Source of the DNA: Bosea sp. 685
GTDB taxonomy: Bacteria > Pseudomonadota > Alphaproteobacteria > Rhizobiales > Beijerinckiaceae
Length of the DNA stretch: 64,000 nucleotides
NCBI RefSeq assembly: GCF_031884435.1
Contig: NZ_CP134779.1
Coordinates: 868,001 to 932,000 of the forward strand
Direction: 5' to 3'
Position 1 is the first letter of the stretch. Each line of letters starts with the position of its first letter. Positions 24,228-42,151 of this stretch are shown here, piece by piece. The notes below the pieces were generated by a model, which did not search any database, was not told the DNA's origin, and saw only the letters and a program-made list of their open reading frames with translations. The translations under genes and the position numbers were made by a program.

Positions 24228-24270
24228 CAGCCCTGCGCGGCGCGGAGCTTGCTAGAGGCAGGGATGACGC

Positions 24271-24411: not shown

Positions 24412-24445
24412 CTGTCGCAGCCGAATCCAGGACGAGGACCCCCCG

Positions 24446-26084: not shown

Positions 26085-27485
26085 TCAGGCTGAGGAAGAG
26101 GCCGCCGCCGCCCTGCCTGCGATCTCGCCCAGCGCAACGGCGGTCAGCAGGCCGTTGCCGGAGAGGTAGCCCGAGGCCTGCGCACCGGAGATGCCGACCG
26201 CCGCGCCGCCGCAGGCGTGGAGATTGGGGAAGGCGCGGCCGCCCCTGTCCAGGACGCGGGCGGCGTCATCGACGCGCAGCCCGCCCTGGGTATGGAATAG
26301 TGCGCCGGTGACGCGAACCGCATGGAATGGCGCTGCCAGGGGCGGCACATTCGAGAAGTCGCGGCCGAAGCGATCGCGTCCCTCACCATGCTTCAGCGCC
26401 GCGACCTCGGCTGCGGTGGCCGCCAGCGCGGCTTTCGGCAGGCCGGTCTTTGCGGCCAGATCTTCGATCGAATCTGCACTGACGATTGCGCCTTGCGCTT
26501 CGGCGTTCTGGAAATCCTCGAACTGGCGCGCGATGCCGGCGATGCGGGCATCGAAGATCGTCCAGGCCTTGCCCTCGGGCTGGCGCAGCACGGTGGCGGC
26601 CTGTTCGGAATAGCCATGACTCTCGTCGGAAAAGCGCTCGCCCAGGGCGTTGACCTGAAAACCGCCCTCCATGATCGTCGCCCAGCTGATCAGGATGCCA
26701 TGCGGCTGGGCGACCGAGCCATGGCCCTGATGGCCAGACATATCGACGAGCTCCGCGCCGAGCTGCTCGCCCCAGAGCACGGCGTCGCCCTCATTGCCGG
26801 AATGGCCGAACCAGAGCGCCTCCGCCATTTGCGGGATGTGGCGCGCCACCAGAGCGCGGTTGCCGCCATAGCCGTTGCAGGCAAGCACGAGCGCCTTGCA
26901 GCCAATTCTCTCCTCGCTGCCATCGGGACGGGTGCCGGCGACGCCGGCGATCACGCCGTCCGGCCTTCGGAACAGCGTGGTGGCGCGAAACCCGGTGACG
27001 ATCGGGATGTCCTGGGCCTCCACGGCCGCGCGCAAACGGTCGATCAGCTCCGAGCCGGTGCGCTTGGGCAGGCCGTGCATGCGCCGGGCGGAATGGCCGG
27101 GATAGGAGAAGTTGGTGATGACGTCGAAGGGCAGGCCATGACGGTCGGCGAGCCATTCAAGCACCGGGCCGATGTGCTCAGCCAATTGCCCGACCATGGC
27201 TGCGTCGGGTTCGTGATGCGCCTTTTCGAGGATGTCCCGGGCGAACAGGGCCGGGCTGTCCTCGATGCCGGCCTGTCGCTGGAAGCGCGTGCCGGCGGCG
27301 GGGATCAGTCCGGCCGAAAGCGCGGTCGAGCCCGAGGGCACGACATCACGCTCGACGATGACGACCTCGGCTCCGGCCTCCTTCGCGGCGAGCGCGGCCG
27401 CAAGTCCCGCCGCGCCCGCGCCGATGATCAGGACATCGGCCTCCACCTCGAAGGCGATGTCGTCGACGGGGCGGACAGCGTTCAT
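26085..27485 (-). CDS. FAD-binding_2 flavoprotein (fumarate reductase/ketosteroid dehydrogenase type)
   Basis: A 466-residue flavoprotein of the succinate dehydrogenase/fumarate reductase/KstD family. The N-terminal FAD site is DVLIIGAGAAGLAAALAAKE followed by VIVERD, the capping domain carries GGFQVNALGERFSDESHGYS, and the C-terminal FAD region is LHACGGAAVGISGAQASGYL. Relatives oxidise or reduce C-C bonds next to carbonyl groups. The frame extends upstream to 27716, but ATG 27485 overlaps the isochorismatase-fold gene stop (ATGA) and is the natural start. It is the last gene of the long minus-strand unit; desaturation of the pathway substrate is a possible role (inference). Confidence 0.85.
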   Translation of the reverse strand: MNAVRPVDDIAFEVEADVLIIGAGAAGLAAALAAKEAGAEVVIVERDVVPSGSTALSAGLIPAAGTRFQRQAGIEDSPALFARDILEKAHHEPDAAMVGQLAEHIGPVLEWLADRHGLPFDVITNFSYPGHSARRMHGLPKRTGSELIDRLRAAVEAQDIPIVTGFRATTLFRRPDGVIAGVAGTRPDGSEERIGCKALVLACNGYGGNRALVARHIPQMAEALWFGHSGNEGDAVLWGEQLGAELVDMSGHQGHGSVAQPHGILISWATIMEGGFQVNALGERFSDESHGYSEQAATVLRQPEGKAWTIFDARIAGIARQFEDFQNAEAQGAIVSADSIEDLAAKTGLPKAALAATAAEVAALKHGEGRDRFGRDFSNVPPLAAPFHAVRVTGALFHTQGGLRVDDAARVLDRGGRAFPNLHACGGAAVGISGAQASGYLSGNGLLTAVALGEIAGRAAAASSSA

Positions 27486-28096
27486 GACGCGGCTATCTCG
27501 GTCATGGCATTCGCGATTGTTGTGATGCGGGCGACGGGCCTGAGCGCGGCGATGGCTTCTGCATGCATCGCCTCGGTCGGGGCGGCGCAGCCATCTTCCA
27601 GCACGGTCACGTCGATGTCGCGGACATGGGCGTCGCGTACCGTCGAGGCGACGCCGCCATTGGTGACGATGCCGCAGACGATCAGCTGTTCGATGGCGAG
27701 TTTGCGCAACAGCCATTCCAGCCTGGTCTGGTAGAAGGCGGAATAGGCGATCTTCTCGACCGCGATATCGATGGGCTGCAGGGTGTCCACCACCTGGTGG
27801 CCCCAGCCGCCGGGTAGGAAATCGCCCTTGCGCAGGAAGGGCCGCATCTGCAGCAGATGCGGCGAGATCAGCGGCTCGCCGCCGCGCCCCGGCACCAGGG
27901 TGAACTGGGTCGCGGCGACGAGCCCGCCCTTGGCGCGGATGAGGTCGGCCAGCGGTTTGAGCTTGACCGGCAGCGCCTGTGCCTGCGGGGAGGCGGCGTT
28001 GCCGCGGGCATAGGCGCCGTCGGGGTGGATGAAGTCGTTCTGCAGATCGACGATCAGCAAGGCGGTGTGGGCGAGGGAGGTGATGGAAGCCGCCAT
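27482..28096 (-). CDS. Isochorismatase-fold protein lacking the usual nucleophilic Cys
   Basis: A 204-residue isochorismatase/cysteine-hydrolase family protein. The catalytic Asp17 (LLIVDLQNDF) and the Lys in EKIAYSAFYQTRL are present, but the motif that normally reads T-N-x-C-V reads VTNGGVASTVRDA, with Gly148 at the nucleophile position. True isochorismatases such as PhzD and EntB also have Gly there and use acid/base chemistry on a vinyl ether, whereas nicotinamidases and N-carbamoylsarcosine amidases need the Cys. A plain amidase role is therefore doubtful. It follows hyuA by 3 nt and overlaps the flavoprotein gene, so it belongs to the same transcript. Confidence 0.85.
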   Translation of the reverse strand: MAASITSLAHTALLIVDLQNDFIHPDGAYARGNAASPQAQALPVKLKPLADLIRAKGGLVAATQFTLVPGRGGEPLISPHLLQMRPFLRKGDFLPGGWGHQVVDTLQPIDIAVEKIAYSAFYQTRLEWLLRKLAIEQLIVCGIVTNGGVASTVRDAHVRDIDVTVLEDGCAAPTEAMHAEAIAALRPVARITTIANAMTEIAAS

Positions 28097-28099
28097 GGC

Positions 28100-30328
28100 T
28101 CAGCTCCTGAGAATCACGAGGTTGCCCAGCGCATCGACCTCTGCCGTCAGGCCGGAATCGAGCAGGATCGTGGCGTCGGATTGCTCAAGCATCGCCGGTC
28201 CCTCGATCTTGGCGCCGACCGGCAGATCGAGCCGCGACCAGATCGCCGTCTCGCGCCACTCGCCGTCGAGATAGACTTGGCGGCTGCCGCGCCGCGCTGC
28301 GTCCAATGTTGCACCAGTGGCCGGCGCCAGCGCCGTCAGGTCGAAGGCTGGGCGGCGGCCGATCGCGGCCGTGCGCAGCGTGACGATGCGAACGGGGATG
28401 CCGGGCAAGAGGCGGCTGAAGGCAGCGCCATAGGCCTTGTCGAAGGCCTCGCGGATGATGGCGCTGGTCACGCCGGTGGTGAAAGAGGGCGCGGGAGCCC
28501 CTCCCCCTGGTGGGGAGGGGTTGGAGTGGGGGGCGGGCGACTGGGTGGGCGGTTTTGAATCGCTGGCCGCGGCCGGAGCGCTGTTCGCGGCAAGGATGAG
28601 CCCGGGCTTTTCGCCACCCACCCCCGGCCCCTCCCCACCAGGGGGAGGGGAGTCGCGAAGCATCACCGGCAGGGGCACTGCGACCGTGTGGGTCTGCCCG
28701 AGATAATGCATGTCGAGTTCGTAGAGCACGTCGATGCGCTCGACGCTCAAACCGGCATCGCTGACGATCGCATGGGCTTCTGCGCCTGCCTCGACCATGC
28801 GAGCGTCGAGGGCGGCAGCATCGAGACCGTCGAGCATCAAATTCACCGTCTGCACGCCGTCATGGCGGATATCGGCGATGACGCAGCCGAGCGCCGAGGT
28901 GACGCCCGGAAAGCGTGGCACCAGCGCGCCGCGCAGGCCGACCTCCTTGATCAGCGCGCCGGCATGGAGTGCACCGCCGCCGCCGAAGGGCATGGCCAGG
29001 AATTTTGCCGGATCATGGCCGCGCTCGATCGAGACCAGCCGGATCGCGCCGGCCATGCGGGCATTCGCGATCTTCACGATCGCTTCCGCCGCCGTCATCA
29101 CGTCGAGGCCGAGCGGCTCGGCGATCTTGAGGCGGATCGCCTCGCGCGCGGCCTCGACATCCAGGCTCTGCAAGGTGCCGAGCGGCTTCGAGCCGTCGAT
29201 GCGGCCGAGCACGAGATTGGCGTCGGTCAGGGTCGGGCGGTCATTGCCCCCGCCATAGCAGACCGGGCCGGGCCGGGAGCCGGCACTTTCCGGCCCCACT
29301 TCGAGCAGGCCGCCGGCATCGACGCGAGCGATCGAGCCGCCGCCGGCGCCGATGGTGGTGATCTCGATCATCGGCGTGCGGATCACCATGCCGAAATCGA
29401 TCGTGCTCTGGGCGGCGAGCGCCGCCTCCCCGCCCGCGATGAGCGAGACGTCGAAAGAGGTGCCGCCGAGATCACCGGTAATAACATCGGGAAAGCCGGC
29501 GGCGCGGGCGATCGCAGCGGCGGCGATGACACCCGCCGCCGGCCCCGACAGCGCGGTACGGACGGGGAGCTTGCGGGCGGTGGCTGTCGACATCACGCCG
29601 CCATTGCTCTGGACGATGTGAAAGCGACCGGTGAAACCATCCTGCGCCAGCGCATCCTCCAGCCGGCCGAGATAGGAGCCGACCAAAGGCTGCAAGGTGG
29701 CGTTGAGCGCGGTCGTCGAGGCGCGTTCGAATTCGCGGATCTCGGGCAGGATCGCGCTGGAGCAGGCGAGGTGCTCGTTCGGCCAGACCGAGCGTGCGGC
29801 CTCCAGCGCGGCGCGTTCATTGGCGGGATTGGCGTAGGCGTTGATGAAGATGATCGCCAGCGCCTCGCAGCCTTGGCTCGCGAGTGTCTGGGCAGCCTCG
29901 CGCACCGCGTCGAGATTGACAGCCGTGCGGATCGTGCCGTCGGCAAGCGTCCGCTCGGGCACCTCCAGCCGGTTCTCGCGGCTGGCGGCGGGCGTGAAAT
30001 CGCCCCACAGTCCCCAGGTCTGGCGGCGGTCACGCCGGCGCATTTCGAGTGCATCGCGGAAGCCCGGCGTGGTGATGACGCCGACCTTGGCGCCCTTGCG
30101 CTCGAGCAGGGCATTGGTGCCGACGGTGGTGCCGTGGACGATCGAGGCGAGGCCGGAGACGGGGCCGAAGGTCGTCAGGCCGGCGATGAAGCCCTTGGCC
30201 TCGTCGCCACGCTGCGACGGAACTTTCGCGACGCGGAAGCGCTTTTCCGCCTCGTCGAACCAGAACAGATCGGTGAAGGTGCCGCCGACATCGACGCCGA
30301 CGACGGCTTTGGGCGAGGGGGAGATCAT
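28100..30328 (-). CDS. hyuA: Hydantoinase/oxoprolinase HyuA-type subunit with in-frame palindromic insertion
   Basis: A 742-residue ATP-dependent hydantoinase A-type subunit. ASKHA-fold landmarks are VVGVDVGGTFTDLFWFDEAE, SIVHGTTVGTNALLERKG, LSGPAAGVIAAAAIARAAG and DLGGTSFDVSLIAGG. With HyuB it would open a cyclic amide (hydantoin, 5-oxoproline, lactam or imide) using ATP; acetophenone carboxylase is a remoter relative. Residues about 558-612 are low-complexity, Pro/Gly/Ser-rich and encoded by a REPIN-like element (28498-28650); homology to the family resumes at GVTSAIIREAFDKAYG, so the reading frame survives. Its start overlaps the hyuB stop. Confidence 0.9.
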   Translation of the reverse strand: MISPSPKAVVGVDVGGTFTDLFWFDEAEKRFRVAKVPSQRGDEAKGFIAGLTTFGPVSGLASIVHGTTVGTNALLERKGAKVGVITTPGFRDALEMRRRDRRQTWGLWGDFTPAASRENRLEVPERTLADGTIRTAVNLDAVREAAQTLASQGCEALAIIFINAYANPANERAALEAARSVWPNEHLACSSAILPEIREFERASTTALNATLQPLVGSYLGRLEDALAQDGFTGRFHIVQSNGGVMSTATARKLPVRTALSGPAAGVIAAAAIARAAGFPDVITGDLGGTSFDVSLIAGGEAALAAQSTIDFGMVIRTPMIEITTIGAGGGSIARVDAGGLLEVGPESAGSRPGPVCYGGGNDRPTLTDANLVLGRIDGSKPLGTLQSLDVEAAREAIRLKIAEPLGLDVMTAAEAIVKIANARMAGAIRLVSIERGHDPAKFLAMPFGGGGALHAGALIKEVGLRGALVPRFPGVTSALGCVIADIRHDGVQTVNLMLDGLDAAALDARMVEAGAEAHAIVSDAGLSVERIDVLYELDMHYLGQTHTVAVPLPVMLRDSPPPGGEGPGVGGEKPGLILAANSAPAAASDSKPPTQSPAPHSNPSPPGGGAPAPSFTTGVTSAIIREAFDKAYGAAFSRLLPGIPVRIVTLRTAAIGRRPAFDLTALAPATGATLDAARRGSRQVYLDGEWRETAIWSRLDLPVGAKIEGPAMLEQSDATILLDSGLTAEVDALGNLVILRS
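28498..28650 (-). repeat. REPIN-like inverted pair of palindromes inside hyuA
   Basis: Two 23-bp units at 28498-28520 and 28628-28650 are exact reverse complements of each other, and each is itself a hairpin of the CCCCTCCCC-loop-GGGGAGGGG type. The whole element is 153 bp, a multiple of three, and keeps hyuA open. A similar single hairpin lies at 37850-37878. Confidence 0.85.
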
Positions 30329-32019
30329 CGGGTGGCCTCCAAATCCACGCCATACTGGGCTTGCGCGGCTTCGGCACTCACATATCCGTTCGCCACATCG
30401 CGCCGCACTGCGGCTGCATCGCGCTCCCTTGGCTCGCCATAGCCGCCACCACCTGGGCTTTCGAGCCGGACGCGCTGGCCTTTGGCTATATGGATGTCGG
30501 TGATCTTGGTGATGAGCGGCGGCGATGTCGGGCCGTCCGGGCCGTCATAGACGAAGCGGTTCATCGCGGCGGGCCCGCCGCCGGCGACGCCGAAGGGCGG
30601 GAACTTGCCGCGCTCGCCGAGCAGGAAGACGTCCGCGCCCGATTGCGCCAGCGCCTCGATCTCGTAGATCGCGCCACAGCCGCCGCGATGACGGCCGGCT
30701 CCGCCGGAATCGGGCCTGAGCGCCCATTGCGTGAACATCACGGGATAGGCGGCCTCGAGGATTTCGGCCGGCGGGATCGTCGCGGTCGAGATCGGATTGT
30801 TGCCATGGTTGAGGCCGTCGCCTTCGGGATTGCCGCCCAAGCCCCCGCCGAAGAAGGAGAACATCACGAAGCGCGAGCCGTCGTCGCGATGTCCTGCCAG
30901 CGAGAGCGCGTTGATCGTGGCATAGGGCGAGCCGTTGGCGCGCTCGGGCGCGATCTGGGCGAAGACGCCGAAGACGGTGTCGATGACGCGCAGGATCGTC
31001 TCGGTATAGCCGCCGACGGGCTTGGGCGCCTTGACGCCGAGCAGGGTACTGGCGGGGATGATGAAGCTGATCGGCTTCAGCACGCCGGCATTGGCCGGGA
31101 CATGCGGGAAGATATGCTTCAGCGCGACATAGCAGCAGGCGACCGCCGTGGAATAGGCGATGTTGAGCGGGCCCTGGCAGGGTGGGGCCGAGCGCGAGAA
31201 ATCGAGCGTCATCAGGTCGCCCGCGATCGTCAGGTCGAGCGCGATCCTGAGCGGGGTGTCGGTGATGCCGTCATTATCGAGGAAATCGTCGAAGGAATAG
31301 CGGCCGTCCGGGAGGCTTGCGATCTCGGCGCGCATCAGCGCCTCGGCGCGGGCGCTGAAGGCATCGAGCGCGGCGTCGACGGTGGCCACGCCATAGTCCG
31401 CCAAGAGCGCGTCGAGCCGCTGCTCGCCGAGATCGAGTGCGTTCAACTGGCCGTTGAGATCGCCCCAGTTCGATTGCGGCAGGCGTGAATTGGCGTTCAG
31501 GATCTCGACGATGTCGTGCTGGAACTCGCCCTTGCGCACGAGCTTCACCGGCGGGATGCGGAAGCCCTCCTGAAAGCTTTCCGTCGCCTTGGCGTTGAAA
31601 TTGCCCGGCACATTGCCGCCGACATCGAGCCAGTGGCCGACCGAGGCCAGCCAGCAGAACAGTTTGCCGTCGCGGAAGATCGGCCGCACCAGGCGCATGT
31701 CGTTGAGATGCGTGCCGCCCTCATAGGGGTCGTTGAAGAGCCAGGTGTCGCCGGGGTCGTTGACGGCACCGGCTTCGACGCGGTCGATCACGGCCTTCAC
31801 CGCGAAGGCCATGGCGCCGACGAAGATCGGCAGGCCGGACGTACCCTGCACCAGGGTCGCGCCGGTCGTGGCGTGGTAGAGGCCGTGGCAGGCATCGTGC
31901 GCCTCGGCGATGATCGGGTTGAAGGCGGAGCGGTAGAGCGTCGCGTCCATCTCGTTGGCGATCTGCTCCAGCCGGCCCTTCAGCACGGCGAGCGTGACGG
32001 GATCAAGCGTCATGGTCAT
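30325..32019 (-). CDS. hyuB: Hydantoinase/oxoprolinase HyuB-type subunit
   Basis: A 564-residue hydantoinase B/oxoprolinase family subunit. Recognisable segments are EQIANEMDATLYRSAFNPII near the N-terminus, NDPYEGGTHLNDMRLVRPIF, VACCYVALKHIFPHVPANAG and, near the C-terminus, LRPDSGGAGRHRGGCGAIYE. It forms the complex with HyuA that hydrolyses cyclic amides. It overlaps hyuA and the lyase gene by 4 nt on each side (ATGA), so the three are translationally coupled. The natural substrate is not predictable from sequence. Confidence 0.92.
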   Translation of the reverse strand: MTMTLDPVTLAVLKGRLEQIANEMDATLYRSAFNPIIAEAHDACHGLYHATTGATLVQGTSGLPIFVGAMAFAVKAVIDRVEAGAVNDPGDTWLFNDPYEGGTHLNDMRLVRPIFRDGKLFCWLASVGHWLDVGGNVPGNFNAKATESFQEGFRIPPVKLVRKGEFQHDIVEILNANSRLPQSNWGDLNGQLNALDLGEQRLDALLADYGVATVDAALDAFSARAEALMRAEIASLPDGRYSFDDFLDNDGITDTPLRIALDLTIAGDLMTLDFSRSAPPCQGPLNIAYSTAVACCYVALKHIFPHVPANAGVLKPISFIIPASTLLGVKAPKPVGGYTETILRVIDTVFGVFAQIAPERANGSPYATINALSLAGHRDDGSRFVMFSFFGGGLGGNPEGDGLNHGNNPISTATIPPAEILEAAYPVMFTQWALRPDSGGAGRHRGGCGAIYEIEALAQSGADVFLLGERGKFPPFGVAGGGPAAMNRFVYDGPDGPTSPPLITKITDIHIAKGQRVRLESPGGGGYGEPRERDAAAVRRDVANGYVSAEAAQAQYGVDLEATR

Positions 32020-32918
32020 GCCTGCTTGCTCTTTTCGGCCGCCGCGATGATCTGCTCGGCTTCATAGCTCCGGCCGGCCGCGATCATCTGCGGCGTGCCG
32101 ATCACGGCGTTGAGCTGGTCGAAATCGAACATCTGGTCGCGGAAGGCATCGGTCGAGCCGTCGCGCTTCAGCGTGCCGTAGAAATCCTGGGCAGCGCGGG
32201 CGAGCGCCCGCACGATGCCGCCGGGGAAGATGACGAGCGAGAAGCCAAGCGCCTCCAACTCCTTTGCCGATTTGATCGGCGTGCGCCCGCCCTCGACCAT
32301 ATTGGCCATCAGCGGAGCCAGGCCCTTCAGCTCGGCGGTGACGCGGCCAAGCTCGTTGGCGGAGCCTGGCGCCTCGACGAAGAGCATGTCCGCGCCAGCC
32401 TGGGCGTAGAGATGGGCGCGTTCGAGGGCGGCTTCGAAGCCCTCCACCGCGATGGCGTCGGTGCGGGCGATGACGAGCGTCTCCTGCGAGGCGCGGGCAT
32501 CGACGGCGGCCTTGATCTTGCCGACCATCTCGGCAGCCGGGATCACGCTCTTGTCGGCGAGGTGGCCGCAGCGCTTGGGAAAGCTCTGGTCCTCGATCTG
32601 CAGGGCATTGGCGCCGGCGCGCTCGAACAGGCGCATGGTGCGCTGCATGTTGAGCGCATTGCCATAGCCGGTATCGGCATCGACGATCAGCGGCGTCGCG
32701 ATGCGGTCGCGGATCATGGTGATGGTATCAGTGACCTCTGCCATCGAGACCAGGCCGATATCGGGTCGACCGAGGCGGGTATAGGCGATCGAGGCGCCCG
32801 AAACATAAAGCGCCTCGAAGCCGGCTGCCTCAGCCAGCGAGGCGGTCAGTGCGTCGTAGACGCCCGGCGCCAGCACGATCTTCGCCTGAGCGAAGCGCGC
32901 CTTGAGGGAGAGGGTCAT
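32016..32918 (-). CDS. ICL/PEP-mutase family C-C lyase (methylisocitrate or dimethylmalate lyase-like)
   Basis: A 300-residue TIM-barrel protein of the isocitrate lyase/PEP mutase superfamily. The Mg-binding motif is TPLIVDADTGYGNALNMQ, then NALQIEDQSFPKRCGHL: the KRCGH signature with its catalytic Cys marks lyases (methylisocitrate, dimethylmalate) rather than PEP mutase. The N-terminal segment YVSGASIAYTRLGRPDIGL is in the expected place. Such enzymes cleave a substituted malate or isocitrate into pyruvate, glyoxylate or oxalate plus a carboxylic acid. In this cluster it may act after a LeuCD-type hydratase. Substrate unknown. Confidence 0.88.
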   Translation of the reverse strand: MTLSLKARFAQAKIVLAPGVYDALTASLAEAAGFEALYVSGASIAYTRLGRPDIGLVSMAEVTDTITMIRDRIATPLIVDADTGYGNALNMQRTMRLFERAGANALQIEDQSFPKRCGHLADKSVIPAAEMVGKIKAAVDARASQETLVIARTDAIAVEGFEAALERAHLYAQAGADMLFVEAPGSANELGRVTAELKGLAPLMANMVEGGRTPIKSAKELEALGFSLVIFPGGIVRALARAAQDFYGTLKRDGSTDAFRDQMFDFDQLNAVIGTPQMIAAGRSYEAEQIIAAAEKSKQA

Positions 32919-34357
32919 GATTGGGGTCCGTTTGGGGTAGCGGGCGTGGCTGCGAGCAGGGCGTTCAGCGCGTCGAGTGTCGCGGCCTGCGGCAGGGCGT
33001 CGATTTGGGCGAGGATCGCTGCGGCATGAGCCTCTCCCCAGACCGGGCCGGCGAGATCGAAGAATTTCTCGCGGATCTCGGCTTCGCTATAGGGATCCTC
33101 AGTGTCGCCGCGGTTGGTCAGCGCTTCCGCTTCCAGCACACGGCCATCGGTCAGGGTGATCGTGACCTTGGCCGGGCGCAGCGCCGGCAGCCTGGCGGTT
33201 GCGGCCTCGTCCTCGCGGACGAAGACGCGGCGGGCGAGGTCGCGGGTGACGGGTTCGAGCCGCGCCGGTTCGCGGAAGGCCTCGACGGTCGCTGCGCCGT
33301 GGACGATCGTGGTCGCGATCGAGAAGGGCAGCGAGAATTTCGCCGCCAGCATGTTGTGCGGCTCCTGGCCGGCGAGCTGCGCCGCCCAGATATAGGTGCC
33401 GACATCGATGCGGGCGATCTGCTCCGGGGCGATGCGGCCGCCCTCGCCGGCCACGATCCGGCTGAGCGCATCGAGCGCGCCGTGATTATAGCGGCAGCAG
33501 GCGTGGCGCTTGAAATAGTTGCGCGCGATCTCCCAGCGCTGCCCCAGCGCCTCGACCATCACGTCAGGCTGCCAATGATCGGCGATGACCGAACCATAGA
33601 CGGTGCCCAACCCATCGGCCTCGCCGGTGAAGCCCGAGGCGACGAGACCATCGACCATCAGGCCGATCTGGTTGGAGAAGCCCGCGAATGTATTGCGGAC
33701 CGTGCCGCCCTCCAGCATCGTCCGGCGGCTGGTGGTGAGGCCGAGCGAGGAGGCGACGTTGATCGTCTCGATCATCGCGGCGGTGTCGCGCTTGTGCAGC
33801 CAGGCGATGGCGACGGCAGCACCGACCGTGCCCCAGGTGCCGTGCGGATGCATGGTGATGCGCAGTTTTGAGGCGATGCCGATTCGGGCGCCGATCTCGT
33901 AGCCGAGCGCGATGGCGGTGATCACATCCTTGCCGCTCGCCTTGGCTTGCATGGCCGCTGCGAGCACGGCGGGCACGACATGGATGCCGGGATGGCCGCG
34001 GGCGAACTGGTTGCCCTCGTCGAGCTCCAGCATCGTGCCGGCCGTGCCGTTGAGAAAAGCGGCGAGGCTCGGCGTCGCCTTGCGGCCGCTGCCGATGATG
34101 GCCGCGCCCGAGACGTCGTCGGCGGGCGCGAGGCGGCCGGAGAGCGCGATCGTCTCCGGCTCCTGCGCACCGGCGGCGATGGCGGCGACCGAGTCGGCAA
34201 TGACCTGAACGGTGCGCGAAACGACCTCGGGTGGCAGCTGCTCGAAGCGCAGATTGGCGCAGAAGGTGGCGAGCTCGCTAAGCCAGCCCGGCGTGGCGGG
34301 GCGCTGCATCACGGGTTCGGCGCGGGGCTGGGCGCTGACGGCGGCGTTTGCGTTCAT
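32915..34357 (-). CDS. MmgE/PrpD family protein
   Basis: A 480-residue MmgE/PrpD-fold protein. Family segments seen are LDEGNQFARGHPGIHVVPAV, RITMHPHGTWGTVGAAVAIA and KRHACCRYNHGALDALSRIV. Characterised members are 2-methylcitrate dehydratase, cis-aconitate decarboxylase and iminodisuccinate epimerase, all acting on small di- or tricarboxylates. It overlaps the lyase gene by 4 nt and starts 7 nt after livF. Beside a methylisocitrate lyase-like protein it suggests dehydration or isomerisation of a branched diacid, but no methylcitrate synthase gene is present. Confidence 0.88.
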   Translation of the reverse strand: MNANAAVSAQPRAEPVMQRPATPGWLSELATFCANLRFEQLPPEVVSRTVQVIADSVAAIAAGAQEPETIALSGRLAPADDVSGAAIIGSGRKATPSLAAFLNGTAGTMLELDEGNQFARGHPGIHVVPAVLAAAMQAKASGKDVITAIALGYEIGARIGIASKLRITMHPHGTWGTVGAAVAIAWLHKRDTAAMIETINVASSLGLTTSRRTMLEGGTVRNTFAGFSNQIGLMVDGLVASGFTGEADGLGTVYGSVIADHWQPDVMVEALGQRWEIARNYFKRHACCRYNHGALDALSRIVAGEGGRIAPEQIARIDVGTYIWAAQLAGQEPHNMLAAKFSLPFSIATTIVHGAATVEAFREPARLEPVTRDLARRVFVREDEAATARLPALRPAKVTITLTDGRVLEAEALTNRGDTEDPYSEAEIREKFFDLAGPVWGEAHAAAILAQIDALPQAATLDALNALLAATPATPNGPQS

Positions 34358-34364
34358 GACGGCC

Positions 34365-35066: not shown

Positions 35067-35814
35067 GGTTGGCTCCCATGCCCGCCGACCCCTGCAGCCG
35101 CTTCGCCGCGCCCTGGCCGAGATAGGCCTCGATCACGGCCGGATCGCCAGCGATCTCTTTGGGCGTTCCTTGCGCGATGATGCGGCCCTGGGCCAGCACA
35201 TGGATGTCTTCGCACAGGCTCATCACGGCCTGCATGACGTGCTCGACCATCAGGATGGTGACGCCCTGGTCGCGGATCTGGCGGATGACCGGGATCATGT
35301 CGCGGATTTCCGACGGGTTGAGCCCGGCCAGCACCTCGTCGAGCAGCAGAAGCTTGGGCTCCGTCGCCAGGGCGCGGGCCAGTTCGAGCCGCTTGCGGCC
35401 GGAAACCGTGAGTGAGGAGGCCGGCTGGTCCAGCATCGCGCTGAGACCAACGAGGCTTGCGACCTCGCGCGCCCGGCCTTGCGCCTCGGCGCGCGCCGGA
35501 TGGCGCAGATAGGCGCCGACAGCGATGTTCTCGACGACGCTGAGGCCGGCGAAGGGCTGGACGATCTGGAAGGTGCGGGCGATGCCGGCCTGGGCCCGCA
35601 GATGGGCGGGCTCGGCGGTGATGTCCTGACCGGCGAAGAGGATGCGGCCTTCGCTGGCCCGCTCGAACCCGGCGATGACGGCAAACAGGGTGGTCTTGCC
35701 GGCGCCGTTGGGGCCGATCAGCCCGGTGATCGAGCCGGCAGTGACCTTCAGGCTTGCGGCATTGACCGCGACGAGCCCGCCGAAGCGCTTGGTGATAGTC
35801 TCGACGGCGAGCAT
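35059..35814 (-). CDS. livG: Branched-chain amino acid-type ABC transporter ATPase LivG
   Basis: A 251-residue ABC ATPase of the LivG type with Walker A GPNGAGKTTLFAVIAG, signature-like LTVSGRKRLELARAL (the usual LSGG is VSGR) and Walker B LLLLDEVLAGLNPSE. Its ATG shares a base with the livM stop (TGATG). It is the second ATPase of the heterodimer with LivF. Confidence 0.93.
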   Translation of the reverse strand: MLAVETITKRFGGLVAVNAASLKVTAGSITGLIGPNGAGKTTLFAVIAGFERASEGRILFAGQDITAEPAHLRAQAGIARTFQIVQPFAGLSVVENIAVGAYLRHPARAEAQGRAREVASLVGLSAMLDQPASSLTVSGRKRLELARALATEPKLLLLDEVLAGLNPSEIRDMIPVIRQIRDQGVTILMVEHVMQAVMSLCEDIHVLAQGRIIAQGTPKEIAGDPAVIEAYLGQGAAKRLQGSAGMGANHA

Positions 35815-36839
35815 CAGGCGGCTCCTTCCGTCTTGGCGGCGGTCGTTTTGGGAGCAGTCGTTTTGGGCGTGGACGTCTCGGGCGTGACCTGGCCGCGGCC
35901 CACCCGCTTCAACAGCCCCATCATGCCGTCGGGTGCGAAGGCGATCGCGGCAACGAGCAGCGCGCCGTAGATCACGAGATCGATGCCGGGGATGCCACCG
36001 GCGAAGCGTTTTGTCAGCTCGCCCAGGCCATGCAGTGTTACCGCGCCGACGATAGGCCCCAATGGCGTGCCGATGCCGCCGATGATCGGGGCGATCAGCG
36101 CCTCGATCGAGATCCAGGAGCCATAGGCGATGTTGGCGTCGAGATAGAGGTAATATTGCACATAAAGCGCGCCGGCCGCGCCGGTGATGCCGGCCGAGAG
36201 CGTGATCGCCTTGAGCTTCACGGCAAGCGTGTCGACGCCGAGTGCGCGCGCCGCGTCCTCGTTTTCGCGCACGGCGGCAAACCAGGCGCCCAGGCGCGAG
36301 CGGGCGATCGCCGTCGTCAGCAGCAAGGTGAAGCCGACGAGCGCGAGCGCGATCCAGACGAAGGCGGCGCGGCTGGCGAACTGGAAGTTCTCGGGCCGGA
36401 TATCGAGCTTGATCAGCGTGCCGGCCGCCCCGCCGGTAAAGGCCGAGGCATTGGCAAGGATGCGGAAGACCTCGGCGAAGGCGAGCGTCACCAGGGCGAA
36501 ATAGGAGCCGCGCAGCCCCGACCGGAAGCTGAGATAGCCGATGATCCAGCCGACCAGCGCCGCGAATCCGATGGCCGCAGCGAAGGCTGCCCAGGCATTG
36601 ACGCCATAGCGCGCCTGCAGCAGTGCGGCCGCATAGGCGCCGCTGCCGAAGAAGGCGGCGTGGCCGAAGGAGAACTGGCCGCAGAGCCCGCCGAGCAGAT
36701 TCCAGCCCTGGGCCGCCAGCGCGATGATCAGGGTGAAGACGATGAAGTTCAGCACCGTGTTGGCGGTGACGAAGACCGGGATCAGCGCCGCCAGCAGGAT
36801 GAGGACGAGCGCGGGAGCGAAGGCGCGCGAGGTGCTCAT
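35814..36839 (-). CDS. livM: Branched-chain amino acid-type ABC transporter permease LivM
   Basis: A 341-residue permease with about ten hydrophobic segments and the LivM landmarks GLCGQFSFGHAAFFGSGAYA and IGGIGTPLGPIVGAVTLHGL. An open frame continues upstream to 37772, but that part merely runs under livH in another frame; ATG 36839 overlaps the livH stop as ATGA and is the real start. The C-terminus is a Thr/Lys-rich tail (VTPETSTPKTTAPKTTAAKT) that the core family does not need. Confidence 0.92.
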   Translation of the reverse strand: MSTSRAFAPALVLILLAALIPVFVTANTVLNFIVFTLIIALAAQGWNLLGGLCGQFSFGHAAFFGSGAYAAALLQARYGVNAWAAFAAAIGFAALVGWIIGYLSFRSGLRGSYFALVTLAFAEVFRILANASAFTGGAAGTLIKLDIRPENFQFASRAAFVWIALALVGFTLLLTTAIARSRLGAWFAAVRENEDAARALGVDTLAVKLKAITLSAGITGAAGALYVQYYLYLDANIAYGSWISIEALIAPIIGGIGTPLGPIVGAVTLHGLGELTKRFAGGIPGIDLVIYGALLVAAIAFAPDGMMGLLKRVGRGQVTPETSTPKTTAPKTTAAKTEGAA

Positions 36840-37708
36840 GCGCGCGCTCCGAACAGGCCGGTGGGCCGCACCAGCAGCACCAGGATGAAGATCAGGAAGA
36901 TGCCGATCTGGCCCAGGCTCTCGCCGAAGAACAAACCGCACAGGCTCTCGACCACGCCGATGAAGAGGGCGCCCAGGAGCGCTCCGGGGATCGAGCCCAT
37001 GCCGCCGAGCACGACGATGGTGAAGGCGACCAGCACGAAGGCGTTGCCGGCGCGGGGCGTGACATAAAAGGTCGGCATCAAGAGGCAGGCGGCGATCGCC
37101 ACGCAAGCCGCGCCCAGGCCGAAGGTGACGGCGTAGATATGGGCGACGTCGATGCCGGCCAGCGCCGCCCCGGTCTTCTCGCGGGCAACCGCGCGGATCG
37201 CCTTGCCGGTGTCGGTGCGGGTGAGCAGCAGGCCGAGCAGCAGCGCGACCAGCAACGCCACGCCGAAGGCGAGCACGCGTGGCAGCGCCAGGAAGGTGAA
37301 GCCGAGATCGATCGAGGAGAAGGCGTAAGCCACGTCGATCGAGCGCGTATCGGAGCGGAAGATCGCGAGCATGGCGTTCTCGATCAGGATCGAGAGACCC
37401 AGCGTCACCAGCAGGATGTTGCGGTCTTCGCCATGGCTTGCCGGGCCGATGATGAAGCGCTGCACGCCGTAGCCCAGCCCGAAGAACAGCGGCGTGACGA
37501 TGAAGAGCGCGATGTAGGGATCGAGCTTGAAGACGGTGTGCGCGACATAGACGGCGAACATCGCCGCCGTCAGCGTTGCGCCATGGGCGAAATTGATGAT
37601 GTGCAGCACGCCATAGACCAGCGTCAGGCCCAGTGCGATCAGCGCATAGACCGAGCCGGTCATCAGGCCGTTCAGCACGGCTGCGAGGATGATGTCTGGT
37701 GCGAACAT
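36836..37708 (-). CDS. livH: Branched-chain amino acid-type ABC transporter permease LivH
   Basis: A 290-residue permease of the LivH type, with the N-terminal VLNGLMTGSVYALIALGLTL and HIINFAHGATLTAAMFAVY and the loop segment IVVLGGMGSIPGALLGAL. It forms the membrane channel with LivM. It lies 179 nt downstream of livK, separated by a repeat and a GC-rich hairpin. Confidence 0.93.
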   Translation of the reverse strand: MFAPDIILAAVLNGLMTGSVYALIALGLTLVYGVLHIINFAHGATLTAAMFAVYVAHTVFKLDPYIALFIVTPLFFGLGYGVQRFIIGPASHGEDRNILLVTLGLSILIENAMLAIFRSDTRSIDVAYAFSSIDLGFTFLALPRVLAFGVALLVALLLGLLLTRTDTGKAIRAVAREKTGAALAGIDVAHIYAVTFGLGAACVAIAACLLMPTFYVTPRAGNAFVLVAFTIVVLGGMGSIPGALLGALFIGVVESLCGLFFGESLGQIGIFLIFILVLLVRPTGLFGARA

Positions 37709-37745
37709 TCGGTTTTCGTTGGGTGACTTCGGCCGGAGCCTCTCG

Positions 37746-37838
37746 CGTCATGCTCGGCCTTGTGCCGAGCATCCACGTCTTGGACGCCGCCTTCGACGAA
37801 GGAAGACGTGGATGGTCGGGGCAAGCCCGACCATGACG
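37746..37838 (+). repeat. GTCAT...CCATGAC two-hairpin repeat, copy 2
   Basis: Ends CGTCAT and ATGACG, left hairpin GCTCGGC/GCCGAGC, central hairpin CCACGTCTT/AAGACGTGG and right hairpin GGTCGGG/CCCGACC. It lies in the livK-livH intercistronic gap. Confidence 0.8.
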
Positions 37839-37849
37839 GGTAGGGTGGG

Positions 37850-37878
37850 CTATCCTCCCCCGGAGAGGGGGAGGATAG
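37850..37878 (-). terminator. GC-rich stem-loop after livK (attenuator or mRNA stabiliser)
   Basis: A perfect 12-bp stem CTATCCTCCCCC / GGGGGAGGATAG with a 5-nt loop lies just after the livK stop. There is no T-run, so a simple terminator is unlikely; it may protect the livK message and lower expression of the downstream permease genes. Its sequence resembles the REPIN units in hyuA. Confidence 0.5.
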
Positions 37879-37887
37879 CCGCGCGCT

Positions 37888-39108
37888 TCACGCCGGCACG
37901 GGGAAGATCGGCTTGGCGTCGGCGAAATCGGTCGGGAAGATCACCTTGATGTCGGCACCCTGGACCTGGGTGTTCACCGGCGCGCCGCCCTCGTTCTGGC
38001 CGTTGACGAACTTGGTCGGGCCATAGGGCATGATGTGGCCGGCGAAGGTCGAGGCCGTGAGCGCCTCGGTCAGCTTGGCCTTATCGCCGGAGCCTGCGGT
38101 CTCCAGCGCGTCGGCGAGAAGCTGGACGCAGGAGTAATTGAGCGGGATGTTGTAGGTCCAGAACTTGCCCGAAGCCTCGACCTGCTTGCGCAGCGCCTCG
38201 GCGACAGGCTTGCGCGGATCGTGCCAATGGTTGCAGTCCATCACGAACTGGGCGGCGTCCTGGAATTCCTTGACGAAGCGGAAATTCGAGGCCGCGCCGT
38301 TGAGCACGGCGTAGATGCCCTTCGGCTTGATGCGCTGCTGCTGCATGGTGCGGGCGAGCAGGGCGAATTCGCCGTAATAGCTCGAGGGAATGACGAGGTC
38401 GGGGTTCTTGGCGCGGATCTGGAGCGCGACGTTCGACATGTCGCGCGACGGCGTCGGATGGGCGATCGTGTCCAGCACCTCGAAGCCGCGCTTGGGCAGT
38501 TCGGCCTGCATCAGCTTGGCCATGCCCGAGCCGAAGAGCCCGTCCTCATGCACCAGTACGACGGTCTTCGCCGGCTTGCCGGCGGCGTCGTTGAGCTTGG
38601 AAAGGTTGTCGAGCGCGGTCTTGGTCACCGTGCCGAAGCCGGGGCCGAAGCGGAAGGTGTTCTTCAGGCCCCGCGTGACGATCGAATCGGCGACGCCGAC
38701 ATCGACGATATAGGGCAGGTCGTAGCGCGCGGCGGCCTGGGAAGCGGCAAGGCAGATCGGCGAGGCGAAACCGCCGACGATTGCGACCACGCCCTCGGCC
38801 TGCATGCGTTCGACCTCCGCCGTACCGCCTTCGGGCGTCGAGCGGGCATCGCCGAAGACCATCTGGAGTTTCGCGCCGCCCATCGACTTGATGCCGCCGG
38901 CCTCGTTGATCGCCTTGATCGCGGCCTCCGCGCCGATCTGGCCCTGCTGGCCGTCATAGGCGAGCGCGCCGGTGACGGGCTGCAGGATGCCGACCTTGAT
39001 GGCGGGGGCTTGTGCGCGCAGCAGGCCGGGCATGGCGATGGTCGCCGCTCCGCCGATCGCCGCCGTCGTCAAAAGCGTGCGGCGGGAAAGCTCGGTGGTC
39101 CTGGTCAT
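37888..39108 (-). CDS. livK: ABC transporter substrate-binding protein (LivK type)
   Basis: A 406-residue periplasmic binding protein (Peripla_BP_6 type). The N-terminus has a twin-arginine-like signal, SRRTLLTTAAIGGAATIAMP, then the mature domain from PAIKVGILQPVTGALAYDGQ. Other family segments are GVVAIVGGFASPICLAASQA and KTVVLVHEDGLFGSGMAKLM. It delivers substrate to LivHMGF. The Tat-type signal suggests export of a folded protein. The ligand cannot be read from sequence; the neighbouring genes point to a cyclic amide, diacid or related compound. Confidence 0.9.
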   Translation of the reverse strand: MTRTTELSRRTLLTTAAIGGAATIAMPGLLRAQAPAIKVGILQPVTGALAYDGQQGQIGAEAAIKAINEAGGIKSMGGAKLQMVFGDARSTPEGGTAEVERMQAEGVVAIVGGFASPICLAASQAAARYDLPYIVDVGVADSIVTRGLKNTFRFGPGFGTVTKTALDNLSKLNDAAGKPAKTVVLVHEDGLFGSGMAKLMQAELPKRGFEVLDTIAHPTPSRDMSNVALQIRAKNPDLVIPSSYYGEFALLARTMQQQRIKPKGIYAVLNGAASNFRFVKEFQDAAQFVMDCNHWHDPRKPVAEALRKQVEASGKFWTYNIPLNYSCVQLLADALETAGSGDKAKLTEALTASTFAGHIMPYGPTKFVNGQNEGGAPVNTQVQGADIKVIFPTDFADAKPIFPVPA

Positions 39109-39176
39109 CTCACATTCTCCTCTGTTCTGTTTGCGGTGCGTCGGGCCCGGTCTCGCGCCGGGCTTGTCTCGAGCGA

Positions 39177-39950
39177 TCAGCCGGCCTGGGCCGGCACGGG
39201 CGACCAGCGCCTCTCGCCGGCCTCGCCGTCGCGGTGGAGTTCCATCTGGAAGGAGTAGCGGTCGGGCCGATAGAGCGCGTGCAGATGCTCGACGCCGCTG
39301 CCGTCAGGCCCGAGGACGACGCGCGTCAGGGACAGGAGCGGCGAGCCGATCTCGAGGCCGAGCGCCTCGGCGACATCAGGGCCGGCCAGGGTCGCGCTGA
39401 TCGCCTGGCTCGCGCGCTCGACCAACGCGCCCGAGCGTTCGAGCAGCGTCAGCAACGGCACGGTCGCGAGATCGGCTTCCGAATAGGTCAGGCCGATGCG
39501 CTCGGGCACATGCGTCGTCAGATAGGAGAAGGGCTGGCCGTCGATCAGGCGCACGCGGACCGAGCGCTGGGTGCGTTCGCCCGGGCCAAGTGCGAGCGCC
39601 TGGGCCACCGCCTCGGGCGGCTGGACATAGGAGAAGGCGAGCAGACGCACGCCGGTGCGGCGGCCCATCTCGACCAGATGGGTCAGCATATTCGAGAAAT
39701 CCGCGACGATCGGCCGAGGCGCTTCGGGCTCGCGCACGAAGGTGCCGGCGCCGACGCGACGGTCGATCAGGCCGTCCGTCGCGAGGCTGTCGAGCGCGCG
39801 ACGGATGGTGACGCGCGAGACGCCGTGCTGCAGCGCCAGGGCCGGTTCACTCGACAGGCGCGTGCCGGGTGAAATCTCGCCACTGGCGATGCGCTCGCGC
39901 AGCAGCAGATAGATGCGTCGCGCCTTGAGGGGTTCGAGCGAAGCGTCCAC
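39177..39950 (-). CDS. GntR family regulator with UTRA domain (HutC type)
   Basis: A 257-residue HutC-subfamily GntR regulator. The N-terminal winged helix spans RRIYLLLRERIASGEISPGT to SRVTIRRALDSLATDGLIDR, and the C-terminal UTRA ligand domain includes GPGERTQRSVRVRLIDGQPF. It lies at the head of the liv/hyu unit and is divergent from leuC; the 126-bp gap carries CTGTCTA repeats. It probably controls both directions and responds to a pathway intermediate. Confidence 0.9.
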   Translation of the reverse strand: MDASLEPLKARRIYLLLRERIASGEISPGTRLSSEPALALQHGVSRVTIRRALDSLATDGLIDRRVGAGTFVREPEAPRPIVADFSNMLTHLVEMGRRTGVRLLAFSYVQPPEAVAQALALGPGERTQRSVRVRLIDGQPFSYLTTHVPERIGLTYSEADLATVPLLTLLERSGALVERASQAISATLAGPDVAEALGLEIGSPLLSLTRVVLGPDGSGVEHLHALYRPDRYSFQMELHRDGEAGERRWSPVPAQAG

Positions 39951-39979
39951 GCAGGGCCTTTCAATGGCAAATGATCTGA

Positions 39980-40006
39980 CTGTCTATCAGAACAGTTATC
40001 TGTCTA
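39980..40006 (+). promoter_or_regulatory. Candidate GntR/UTRA operator in a divergent promoter
   Basis: Two CTGTCTA direct repeats (39980-39986 and 40000-40006) are exactly 20 bp apart, and between them ACAG-TTAT-CTGT forms an inverted repeat. The region lies 29 nt from the gntR start and about 70 nt before leuC. Confidence 0.55.
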
Positions 40007-40076
40007 GCGTATAGGACAACTTGCTTGCGTCAAGCGTCGTGTGGTCGCTATGCTCGGCGTGGAAAGGGTAGGCCCG

Positions 40077-41534
40077 ATGACAGCCGCAACCATGATCGCG
40101 GGAACGCCTGGGAGCGCAAGCAAGTCCGGGGCCGGACCACGCACGCTGTTCGACAAGCTCTGGGACGCACATGTCGTCGTCGAGCGACCGTCAGGCGATG
40201 CGCTGATCTGGATCGACCGGCATTTCGTGCATGAGGGTTCGTTTCACGCCTTTGCGCAAGTCGCAGGGCGCGACGGGGTCGTCGTCGAACCCGGCCTGAC
40301 CTTCGGTATCGCCGACCATTATGTGCCGACGCGCGGCCGCGACCACATCGCCAATCCCGAGATCGCCCGAATGATCGACGATCTGGAGGCGAACACGGCG
40401 CGCCATGGTGTTGAACTCTTCGGGGTGAACGATCCGCGCCAGGGCATCGTCCATGTCGTCGGGCCCGAGCAGGGGCTGACGCTGCCGGGGCTAACCATGG
40501 TCTGCGGCGACAGCCATACCTCGACCCATGGCGCCTTCGGGGCTTATGCCTTCGGCATCGGCGCCTCGGAAGTCGCGCATGTATTGATGACGCAGACGCT
40601 CTGGCAGAAGAAGCCCAGGCGCATGCGCATCACCATAGACGGCACGCCCGCTCCCGGCGTTGGGGCGAAGGATTTCATCCTCAGCATCATCGCGAAGATC
40701 GGCGCGGACGGGGCGCGCGGCTATGCTGTCGAATATGCGGGCGAGGCGGTGCGGGCGCTGTCGATGGCGGGCCGCATGACCATGTGCAACATGTCGATCG
40801 AGGCAGGCGCACGCTGCGGGCTGATCGCGCCCGACGAGACGACCTTCCGCTGGATCGCTGGCAAGCCCTACGCGCCCAAGGGAGCGGCGCTGGAGGCAGC
40901 CATCGCCGCGTGGCGGAATTTGCCAAGCGATACGGACGCCTGCTTCGACCGCGAGATCGCGCTCGAAGCTGCCGCGATCGCCCCCATCGTCACCTGGGGG
41001 ACCAGCCCGGAGGATGCGCTGCCGATCGGCGCCAGCGTGCCCGATCCTGCCGCGCTCAACGATGACGGCCGCGCTGCCGCCATGCGCGATGCGCTCGCCT
41101 ATATGGGGTTGCGACCGGGGCAGAAGCTGAGCGAGATCGTGGTTGACCGCGTCTTCATCGGCTCCTGCACCAATGCCCGCATCGAGGATCTGCGCGCGGC
41201 GGCAAGCGTGCTTGCGGGCCGCAAGGCGCGCGTGCCGGGGCTGGTCTCGCCGGGTTCGAGCCAGGTGAAGCGGCAGGCCGAGGAGGAGGGGCTCGACCGC
41301 ATCTTCATCGCGGCCGGGCTCGAATGGGTCGAATCCGGCTGCTCGATGTGCGTCGGCATGAACGGCGACAGCGTGCCCTCCGGCGAGCGCTGCGCCTCGA
41401 CGACGAACCGCAATTTCCGCGGCCGGCAAGGGCCGGGCGCCCGCACCCATCTGATGTCGCCGGCCATGGTCGCCGCTGCGGCCGTGACCGGGCATCTTAC
41501 CGATGTCCGGCCGATGCTGGAGGGCCGGTCGTGA
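40077..41534 (+). CDS. leuC: Aconitase-family hydratase large subunit (LeuC-like)
   Basis: A 485-residue protein closely resembling the 3-isopropylmalate dehydratase large subunit. The three [4Fe-4S] cysteines are visible in the first motif [20 protein letters not shown] region, in [14 protein letters not shown] and in the C-x2-C of [12 protein letters not shown]. The frame is open from GTG 40041, but ATG 40077 has GGAAAGG upstream and is preferred. Paralogues hydrate citraconate, maleate or dimethylmaleate. Being divergent from a catabolic regulator and far from leuB, a catabolic hydratase role is more likely than leucine synthesis. Confidence 0.88.
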
Positions 41535-42151
41535 AGCCCTTGACGGGGGTCAGCGGCCCGGCTTGCCCGCTTGGCCTCGCCGGCGTCGATACCGACCAAT
41601 TGATCCCGGCCCGTTTCATGAAACGGCCGCGCTCGGAGGGCTATGGCGGCTTCCTGCTGCATGATCTGCGCCGCGACGATGCCGGGATCGAGAAGCCCGA
41701 CTTTCCGCTGAACCGCCCGGTCTGGCGCGGAGCCGAGATCATGGTGGCGCGGCGCAATTTCGGCTCGGGCTCGTCGCGGGAGGCAGCGGTCTATGCGCTG
41801 GCCGACCATGGCGTCCGCGTCGTGCTGGCGCCGACCTTCGGCGACATCTTTGCGTCCAACGCGGTCAAGAACGGGCTTTTGCCGGCGGTGCTCGACGAGG
41901 CCGACATCGAGGACCTGCTGGCAGCCCTGACCGCGACGCCGGATCTGCCGGTCAGCGTCGATCTGGCGGAGCAGACGGTTGCCTGGGGCAATCGCGCGGT
42001 CATTTTCGCGATCGATCCGGTCTGGCGCGAGCAACTGCTCAATGGCTGGGACGATATCGACGTGACGCGGTCTTTTGCTGACGAAATCGCGCGTTTTCGC
42101 GACGCCGACGGCGCCAGGCGGCCATGGGCGCGACCGTCAGCGAAAGCCTGA
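41531..42151 (+). CDS. leuD: Aconitase-family hydratase small subunit (LeuD-like)
   Basis: A 206-residue swivel-domain subunit. Family segments are [20 protein letters not shown], the substrate-contact loop [20 protein letters not shown], and [20 protein letters not shown]. The start is GTG 41531, overlapping the leuC stop as GTGA, so the two subunits are coupled. It completes the active site of the large subunit. Confidence 0.9.

Follow-up and report, generated by a model that had tools for sequence, protein, structure and literature searches.

The window analysed here, a stretch of 64,000 nucleotides from Bosea sp. 685, carries a packed minus-strand operon encoding an ABC transporter, a HyuAB-type ring opener, an isochorismatase-fold protein, a flavoprotein and a PrpB-like lyase, next to a GntR/UTRA regulator gene and a divergent leuCD pair. 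On the sequence evidence, this gene set is a real, conserved and widespread regulon. Its most likely function is cyclic-imide degradation, for which we infer the reactions, their order and the substrate. More specifically, the set may serve the breakdown of a cyclic imide with a substituted ring of five or six members, or of a closely similar cyclic amide, with glutarate as the probable product of the lyase, a proposal that we hold with about even confidence. The initial annotation had read the region as one coherent catabolic regulon, and this view is now backed by conservation of the set, a shared operator and a second LeuCD in the genome. Among the matches listed from the open-licence literature we found no description of the function of the gene set, which does not by itself show that it is absent from print.

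Conservation of the gene set

The lyase (32016..32918, minus strand), a member of the PrpB/isocitrate lyase (ICL) superfamily with a KRCGH motif, was used as query against 297 genomes of the order. Matches of at least 58% identity were present in 48 of these genomes, and the next matches fell to 50% identity and less. The best 30 lyase matches in the order were taken as short loci, and hyuA or hyuB lay within about 1.5 kb of the lyase in all 29 other than our own. A further 86 longer loci (numbered with L below) comprised the best 80 from named records and 6 plasmid loci (455 plasmid records had a match). Presence was called at identity thresholds that we set ourselves, with more than 35% query coverage; near-identical loci were kept in the counts (L099 and L100 have the same start of the glutaryl-CoA dehydrogenase, GcdH), and maps of unclustered open reading frames (ORFs) came from a crude gene picker of our own. 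Since the choice of loci rests on the lyase, lyase-free versions of the set are invisible to this approach.

Among the 86 loci, HyuB, HyuA and the isochorismatase-fold protein were each present in 67, the FAD protein in 66 and the GntR regulator in 64. LeuC was of a long type in 57 loci and of a short type in 14, never both, giving one type in 71; HyuB, the FAD gene, the isochorismatase-fold gene and a LeuC were found jointly in 53. Co-occurrence of hyuAB, the lyase and leuCD in other genomes, suggested earlier as a check on the regulon, is borne out by these numbers. Transport genes were more varied (livK in 36, TRAP DctP in 23, a TctC-type binding protein in 9), and the accessory genes encoded a tautomerase-domain protein (35), PrpD (14) and an Asp/Glu racemase family protein (6). 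These counts stood when the presence table, including the column for the catalytic cysteine discussed below, was recounted and the allantoinase-type protein was searched for in all 86 loci. The order of genes varies between loci, so the set is not the mere descent of one unbroken block. Judged by record titles, the hosts span Alpha-, Beta- and Gammaproteobacteria, and soil, plant and sea bacteria are among the carriers.

A draw of 349 genomes from the phylum contained 10 with a strong lyase match, our own included, and ten stretches around matches were taken from the nine others. The lyase was present at 56-72% identity in nine stretches, of which five had HyuAB and the isochorismatase-fold protein, seven had LeuC and/or LeuD nearby, and one had the PuuE pair and Cys-type isochorismatase-fold protein described below. 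Two genomes, G218 and G287, were also in the order search, which makes this draw only partly independent.

A shared regulator and candidate operator

The GntR/UTRA regulator gene gntR (39177..39950, minus strand; PF00392, PF07702) had HutC as its best NCBIfam model, at 115.5 bits and under the cut-off of 220. The palindrome TGTAT-N8-ATACA was found exactly in 13 of 65 regions upstream of gntR, and in shuffled regions no palindrome was found more than 3 times. It occurs 18 times in all 1.66 Mb of loci, with no occurrences when the spacer is changed to 4-7 or 9-12. With relaxed scoring, 30 sites reached the full score, and 29 of these lay no more than 400 nt from matches to gntR, leuC, livK, the tautomerase, hyuB or the FAD gene. 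This operator was derived from the very loci on which its definition rests, shuffles and spacer variants serving as controls, and the relaxed score was fixed after the sites had been seen.

In the window, the candidate operator TGTCTAGCGTATAGGACA lies at 40001..40018 between gntR and leuC, and is the only site scoring at least 9/10 in the 64 kb. Had leuCD and hyuAB been regulated separately, the regulon would have been refuted according to the initial annotation; the position of this sole good site speaks against such a separation. In three Marinobacter loci the site is upstream of leuC, between leuC and gntR, apart from the hydrolase operon. We propose that a single GntR/UTRA regulator would act on the palindromic operator at the divergent promoters.

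Three families of putative ring opener occupy one position

Caprolactamase, 5-oxoprolinase and N-methylhydantoinase are HyuAB-type ATP-dependent cyclic amidases, and the window has both subunits with the Pfam domains of this family, encoded on the minus strand by hyuA (28100..30328; PF05378, PF01968, PF19278) and hyuB (30325..32019; PF02538). The NCBIfam model nearest to HyuA is caprolactamase alpha, below its cut-off. The pair differs from caprolactamase in its partner genes and in scoring only 479 and 313 bits with the models NF050156 and NF050157, far below the cut-off of 1000.

HyuAB is replaced in nine of the 86 loci. Two tandem PuuE-like proteins of the polysaccharide-deacetylase family take its place in six (L040, L090, L108, L109, L112 and L119), five of which also have a Cys-type isochorismatase-fold protein. 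An amidohydrolase of allantoinase/hydantoinase type, directly behind the lyase, takes its place in three (L058, L076 and L084). HyuB was never found in the same locus as either replacement. With the allantoinase models TIGR03212 (cut-off 424.6) and TIGR03178 (cut-off 357.9), the PuuE-like proteins of L112 scored 114-116 bits and the allantoinase-type proteins of L058 and L084 scored 235 and 223 bits; these values establish only the family, not the substrate.

Members of all three opener families hydrolyse a ring that is an amide, an imide or a ureide. That one slot is filled by three unrelated families of cyclic-amide hydrolases makes a cyclic imide or amide more probable than an aromatic N-heterocycle, so that of the imported substrates first suggested (a cyclic amide, imide or N-heterocycle) the former two gain support and the aromatic N-heterocycle is disfavoured. 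Among these the imide is preferred, because the vicinal dicarboxylate for a LeuCD/PrpB-type sequence would follow directly from a cyclic imide and not from a ureide. A comparable opening step is described for nicotinate catabolism in Aspergillus nidulans. There, in the available part of the source, a cyclic imide is converted to a half-amide by the cyclic imidase HxnM, a relative of cyclic imide hydrolase and of PuuE, and the half-amide is then hydrolysed, HxnN being the amide hydrolase of the pathway (PMC9304392). Kin of HxnM are the openers in the six PuuE-type loci. The fungal route as given there differs in ending in 2-hydroxyglutarate with no LeuCD or lyase, whereas the window uses HyuAB (PMC9304392).

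Two further observations concern the openers. The hyuA gene of the window has a 165-bp in-frame palindromic insertion (28484-28648, amino acids 561-615), whose ends form perfect inverted stretches of 21-23 nt and which has a single-strand DNA fold z-score of -4.8; no further copy was found in the window. HyuA is 742 aa long in the window, compared with 684-691 aa by annotated coordinates in L035, L037, L038 and L039. Secondly, in L088 (1518-7149) a close relative of the lyase is accompanied by a tartrate dehydrogenase (557.9 bits, above the cut-off), an amidase-signature amidase and a protein that clusters with the CaiB-type transferases, an arrangement that suggests one more variant lacking HyuAB.

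The isochorismatase-fold protein lacks the catalytic cysteine

The isochorismatase-fold protein (27482..28096, minus strand; PF00857) has Gly at the position of the catalytic Cys, in the stretch TNGGV. This Gly is present in 68 of 69 aligned copies, window included, the exception being the second paralogue in L092. The other two residues of the catalytic Asp-Lys-Cys triad, Asp and Lys, are kept in all 69. The name 'cysteine hydrolase' is therefore misleading for this protein. The same Asp-Lys-Gly triad is reported for E. coli YecD and EntB, and, in the part of the study available, a lactam and several amides that were hydrolysed by the Cys mutant of YecD were left intact by the wild-type protein (PMC12553813). 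Gene position, together with the swap with a Cys-type relative in other loci, suggests that the protein could act as a half-amidase; speculatively, a cis half-amide might use its own neighbouring carboxylate as the nucleophile.

These features bear on catabolism of a cyclic ureide (hydantoin) of the creatinine/N-methylhydantoin kind, in which HyuAB would open the hydantoin, the isochorismatase-fold protein would remove the carbamoyl group and the flavoprotein would oxidise the resulting amino acid. The allantoinase-type, PuuE-type and HyuAB families all include ureide openers, and N-carbamoylsarcosine amidohydrolase gives alignments of 87 and 71 bits with the substitute isochorismatase-fold protein in Marinobacter. 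However, the creatinine/N-methylhydantoin pathway combines HyuAB with an N-carbamoylsarcosine amidase that has a catalytic Cys; here HyuAB is present and the amidase Cys is absent in 68 of 69 copies, and we set this pathway aside. The initial annotation had objected that it leaves the lyase and LeuCD unexplained, which holds, and the same is true of the glutarate genes described below. We therefore regard hydantoin catabolism as unlikely.

The hydratase, the lyase and the flavoprotein

The plus-strand leuC-like gene (GTG 40041 or ATG 40077, to 41534; PF00330) and leuD-like gene (41531..42151; PF00694) encode the large and small subunits of a proposed aconitase-family hydratase. Their products exceed the cut-offs of the 3-isopropylmalate dehydratase models (LeuC, TIGR00170, 651 bits, cut-off 560; LeuD, TIGR00171, 171 bits, cut-off 116), as a second leucine-biosynthesis isomerase standing by chance beside an unrelated hyu/liv operon would. 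However, a LeuC is present in 71 of the 86 loci in varied gene orders and shares the operator, and four aconitase-family matches are present in the genome of 6.8 Mb (two contigs), among them a housekeeping-type LeuC/LeuD with 53.5% and 38.8% identity to the cluster pair. The cluster LeuD also departs from the housekeeping signature SSREHAPWAL, with the same or close variants (for example SSREGAVYAL) in other cluster copies (alignment of 56 rows, housekeeping copy included). As far as sequence can tell, the genome has another isopropylmalate isomerase besides the cluster pair; the opposite case, with this LeuCD as the sole such enzyme and able to complement a leucine auxotroph, had been named as a finding against the regulon. 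A role in leucine biosynthesis was set aside as highly improbable. In five of the six plasmid regions the LeuCD copies of the set bear the annotation 3-isopropylmalate dehydratase, which is probably wrong.

The nearest solved relatives of the lyase are methylisocitrate lyases (PDB, E 1.8e-70, profile A1), and 2,3-dimethylmalate lyase is also among its solved relatives. It scored 286.4 bits with the PrpB model TIGR02317, below the cut-off of 354.4. In an alignment of 87 sequences, the K, C, G and H of the ICL/PrpB catalytic K(R/K)CGH motif were invariant, with R at the variable position in 86 and K in one. Arg152 and Phe180 are present, and in most of the 87 sequences Gly-Gly replaces the Leu-Ser of PrpB (YPLS stretch), of which the Leu presumably helps to shape the pocket for the methyl group. 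The logic of ring opening followed by a hydratase and a PrpB-type lyase, as first proposed, is supported.

The 2-methylcitrate cycle uses a PrpD dehydratase, an AcnD/AcnB aconitase-family hydratase and the PrpB lyase in sequence. A similar succession can be read in the window, where the MmgE/PrpD-family gene prpD (32915..34357, minus strand; PF03972, PF19305), LeuCD and the KRCGH-containing lyase occur together. LeuCD would then replace AcnD/AcnB, the lyase would be a methylisocitrate lyase, as its nearest solved relatives are, and HyuAB and the remaining genes would feed a methylcitrate-like acid into this variant cycle end. Against this, PrpD was found in only 14 of the 86 loci, and is thus an optional member and not a core part of the system as the initial annotation had it; the lyase falls short of the PrpB cut-off and mostly lacks the Leu-Ser pair; and the glutarate genes would be unexplained. 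The set further differs from the cycle in its LeuCD-type hydratase and in adding HyuAB, the isochorismatase-fold protein, the flavoprotein and an ABC or TRAP importer. We consider the variant cycle distinctly unlikely, and set the plain methylcitrate cycle aside on the rarity of PrpD and the missed PrpB cut-off.

Nicotinate fermentation offers another parallel, since its dimethylmaleate hydratase (aconitase family) is followed by dimethylmalate lyase (ICL superfamily). An aerobic counterpart of this branch, cleaving 2,3-dimethylmalate to pyruvate and propionate, would use the same enzyme families, and it is in keeping with the solved 2,3-dimethylmalate lyase and with the shorter LeuC type in 14 loci, the L106 copy of which scores above the cut-offs for both the homoaconitate-hydratase and the IPMI_arch subfamily model. 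However, the set occurs in proteobacteria with a cyclic-amide opener, and its linkage to glutarate rather than propionate genes, with a glutaryl-CoA dehydrogenase, points to a C5 and not a C3 product, so that this alternative is very unlikely. In L106 (8163-19799), the short-type LeuCD and lyase face an operon with relatives of the ETF genes of L040, a CaiB-type transferase, an amidase and a phenylacetate-CoA-ligase-like protein.

The FAD protein (26085..27485, minus strand; PF00890) belongs to the flavocytochrome c / urocanate reductase / TcuA superfamily (PDB 1qo8 and 6t85), and scored 243 bits with TIGR01813, under the cut-off of 285. TcuA, which desaturates a tricarboxylate to an aconitate-type acid in tricarballylate utilisation, is of the same superfamily; the window protein differs in scoring only 153.9 bits with the TcuA model NF006130 (cut-off 369). 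A GYSE motif is invariant in 67 aligned copies, window included. A fumarate-reductase function was set aside: by eye, the position taken as that of the catalytic Arg in flavocytochrome c3 seems to coincide with this motif, a placement from which no firm conclusion follows. Old yellow enzyme (OYE)-family reductases are present in eight of the 86 loci, four of them confirmed by Pfam, with a weaker ninth as a partial match at the edge of L114. These reductases and the tautomerase-domain/SnoaL-like protein, an optional part of the set, would act on C=C bonds.

Linked genes point to glutarate

Seven of the 86 loci (L040, L056, L099, L100, L109, L112 and L119) contain a glutaryl-CoA dehydrogenase and a CaiB-type CoA-transferase, which points to glutarate as a product. 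The best ten PDB matches of the GcdH copy in L112 comprise nine entries entitled (putative) glutaryl-CoA dehydrogenase and a single acyl-CoA dehydrogenase, the top match reaching 643 bits, and the six other linked copies are 70-92% identical to it. Succinate-glutarate CoA-transferase was by far the best model for the CoA-transferases of L040 and L099 (542 and 540 bits, under the NF052585 cut-off of 750). In three of these loci (L056, L099 and L100) the FAD gene and the dehydrogenase ORF share 14 nt. Assuming one gene per 4.5-Mb genome, about 0.4 GcdH genes would be expected by chance in the 1.66 Mb of loci. Across the order, GcdH was present in 46 of 48 lyase-positive genomes versus 179 of 249 others (Fisher p 1.6e-4, not corrected for kinship), and the two lyase-positive genomes without it are drafts of 85% and 91% completeness.

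In the Marinobacter loci L109, L112 and L119 (about 2300-3220), gcdH lies beside a gene that clusters with an FCD-domain protein annotated in L036, and may thus be under its own control.

Organisation of the window

The operon is completed on the minus strand by the ABC transporter genes livF (34365..35066) and livG (35059..35814), encoding ATPases and assigned from ORFs and conserved order, livM (35814..36839, permease, from translation and conserved order), livH (36836..37708, permease, from its ORF; 36 of 86 loci) and livK (37888..39108, periplasmic binding protein, PF13458). Seven of the ten junctions among the eleven minus-strand genes are overlaps of 1-8 nt, and spacers of 3, 7 and 179 nt separate the genes at the remaining three. 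The packed eleven-gene operon, the one GntR/UTRA regulator and the divergent leuCD were all found where the initial annotation had placed them; the count of eleven requires the isochorismatase-fold gene, which its title and reading had left out.

Outside this region, minus-strand genes at 15415-23330 resemble uronate catabolism (mannitol dehydrogenase, KduI and UxaC families by Pfam), interspersed with ORFs that look by eye like a TRAP transporter and short-chain dehydrogenases. At 23442-25828 the plus strand has a second GntR regulator gene, of the FCD type, and a gene for an amidase-signature amidase, both transcribed towards the flavoprotein gene. As a possible member of the set, this amidase (24446-25828) reached the 40% identity threshold in none of the 86 related loci.

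Proposed pathway and candidate substrates

We propose that the substrate would be imported by LivKHMGF, or by TRAP DctPQM in other, mostly marine, lineages, and that HyuAB would open its ring with ATP. The isochorismatase-fold protein would complete nitrogen release, and the flavoprotein, judged by its superfamily, would set the oxidation state (C-C or C=C) of the succinate/maleate moiety. LeuCD would hydrate the resulting substituted maleate-type polycarboxylate, and the PrpB-like lyase would split the product, a hydroxy acid, into pyruvate or glyoxylate as the 2-oxo acid and a carboxylate, most likely glutarate, which would leave via the CoA-transferase and glutaryl-CoA dehydrogenase.

Several observations weigh against this pathway. 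The isochorismatase-fold protein is without the cysteine used by amidases of its fold, and wild-type YecD, with the same triad, was inactive on the lactam and the several amides that served as substrates for its Cys mutant (PMC12553813). LeuC and LeuD both score above the 3-isopropylmalate dehydratase cut-offs of NCBIfam, so the substrate of the hydratase could be isopropylmalate-like. The PuuE-like and allantoinase-type proteins are under their model cut-offs and belong to families that include ureide openers. None of the three opener types was found in 10 of the 86 loci (L048 has only a 42% HyuA-like match, and L048, L078, L088 and L114 are all shorter than 13 kb), and neither LeuC type in 15, nine of which are shorter than 17 kb. 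In the phylum draw, L136, one of the nine close loci, has the lyase but no other core gene, and L142, a weaker match, has no gene of the set at our thresholds. Linkage to GcdH is confined to seven of 86 loci in about three lineages, and GcdH is common anyway (225 of 297 order genomes). Finally, for three GcdH copies the FadE model scored highest (237-252 bits) and the glutaryl-CoA dehydrogenase model NF045552 fourth (207-215, cut-off 470), all under cut-off.

If the degradation of a cyclic imide ends in glutarate, the two possible 2-oxo acids lead to different substrates. With glyoxylate, the acid before hydration would be homoaconitate. With pyruvate it would be a C8 acid, corresponding to hematinic acid as the imide or, in the saturated form, to dihydrohematinic acid. 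Hematinic acid derives from heme and bilins, and dihydrohematinic acid from chlorophyll ring D. The regulon might thus salvage imides from tetrapyrrole oxidation, a tentative idea that we rate as rather unlikely. Ring opening and deamidation would give a C8 tricarboxylate, with desaturation of the dihydro form by the flavoprotein; LeuCD would form methyl-homoisocitrate, and the lyase would release pyruvate and glutarate, matching the GcdH and CoA-transferase genes. The optional OYE-family reductases and tautomerase-domain protein would handle C=C variants.

The speculative hematinic/dihydrohematinic candidate is chemically neat and fits marine and plant-associated hosts. In the part of one study available, hematinic acid was measured in leaves and cited from senescent leaves and lake sediments, and maleimides were not detected (PMC7318184). 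We found nothing on bacterial use of hematinic acid among the matches listed from the open-licence literature. A ferrochelatase gene is present in L139, more than 4 kb from the lyase, and was not taken as evidence for tetrapyrroles.

The set forms a clear family, with a regulator, an operator, core genes and a swappable ring opener, and with a short list of candidate substrates that includes imides of chlorophyll and heme. If the salvage of tetrapyrrole imides is true, it would represent a bacterial route for recycling carbon and nitrogen from the most abundant pigments.

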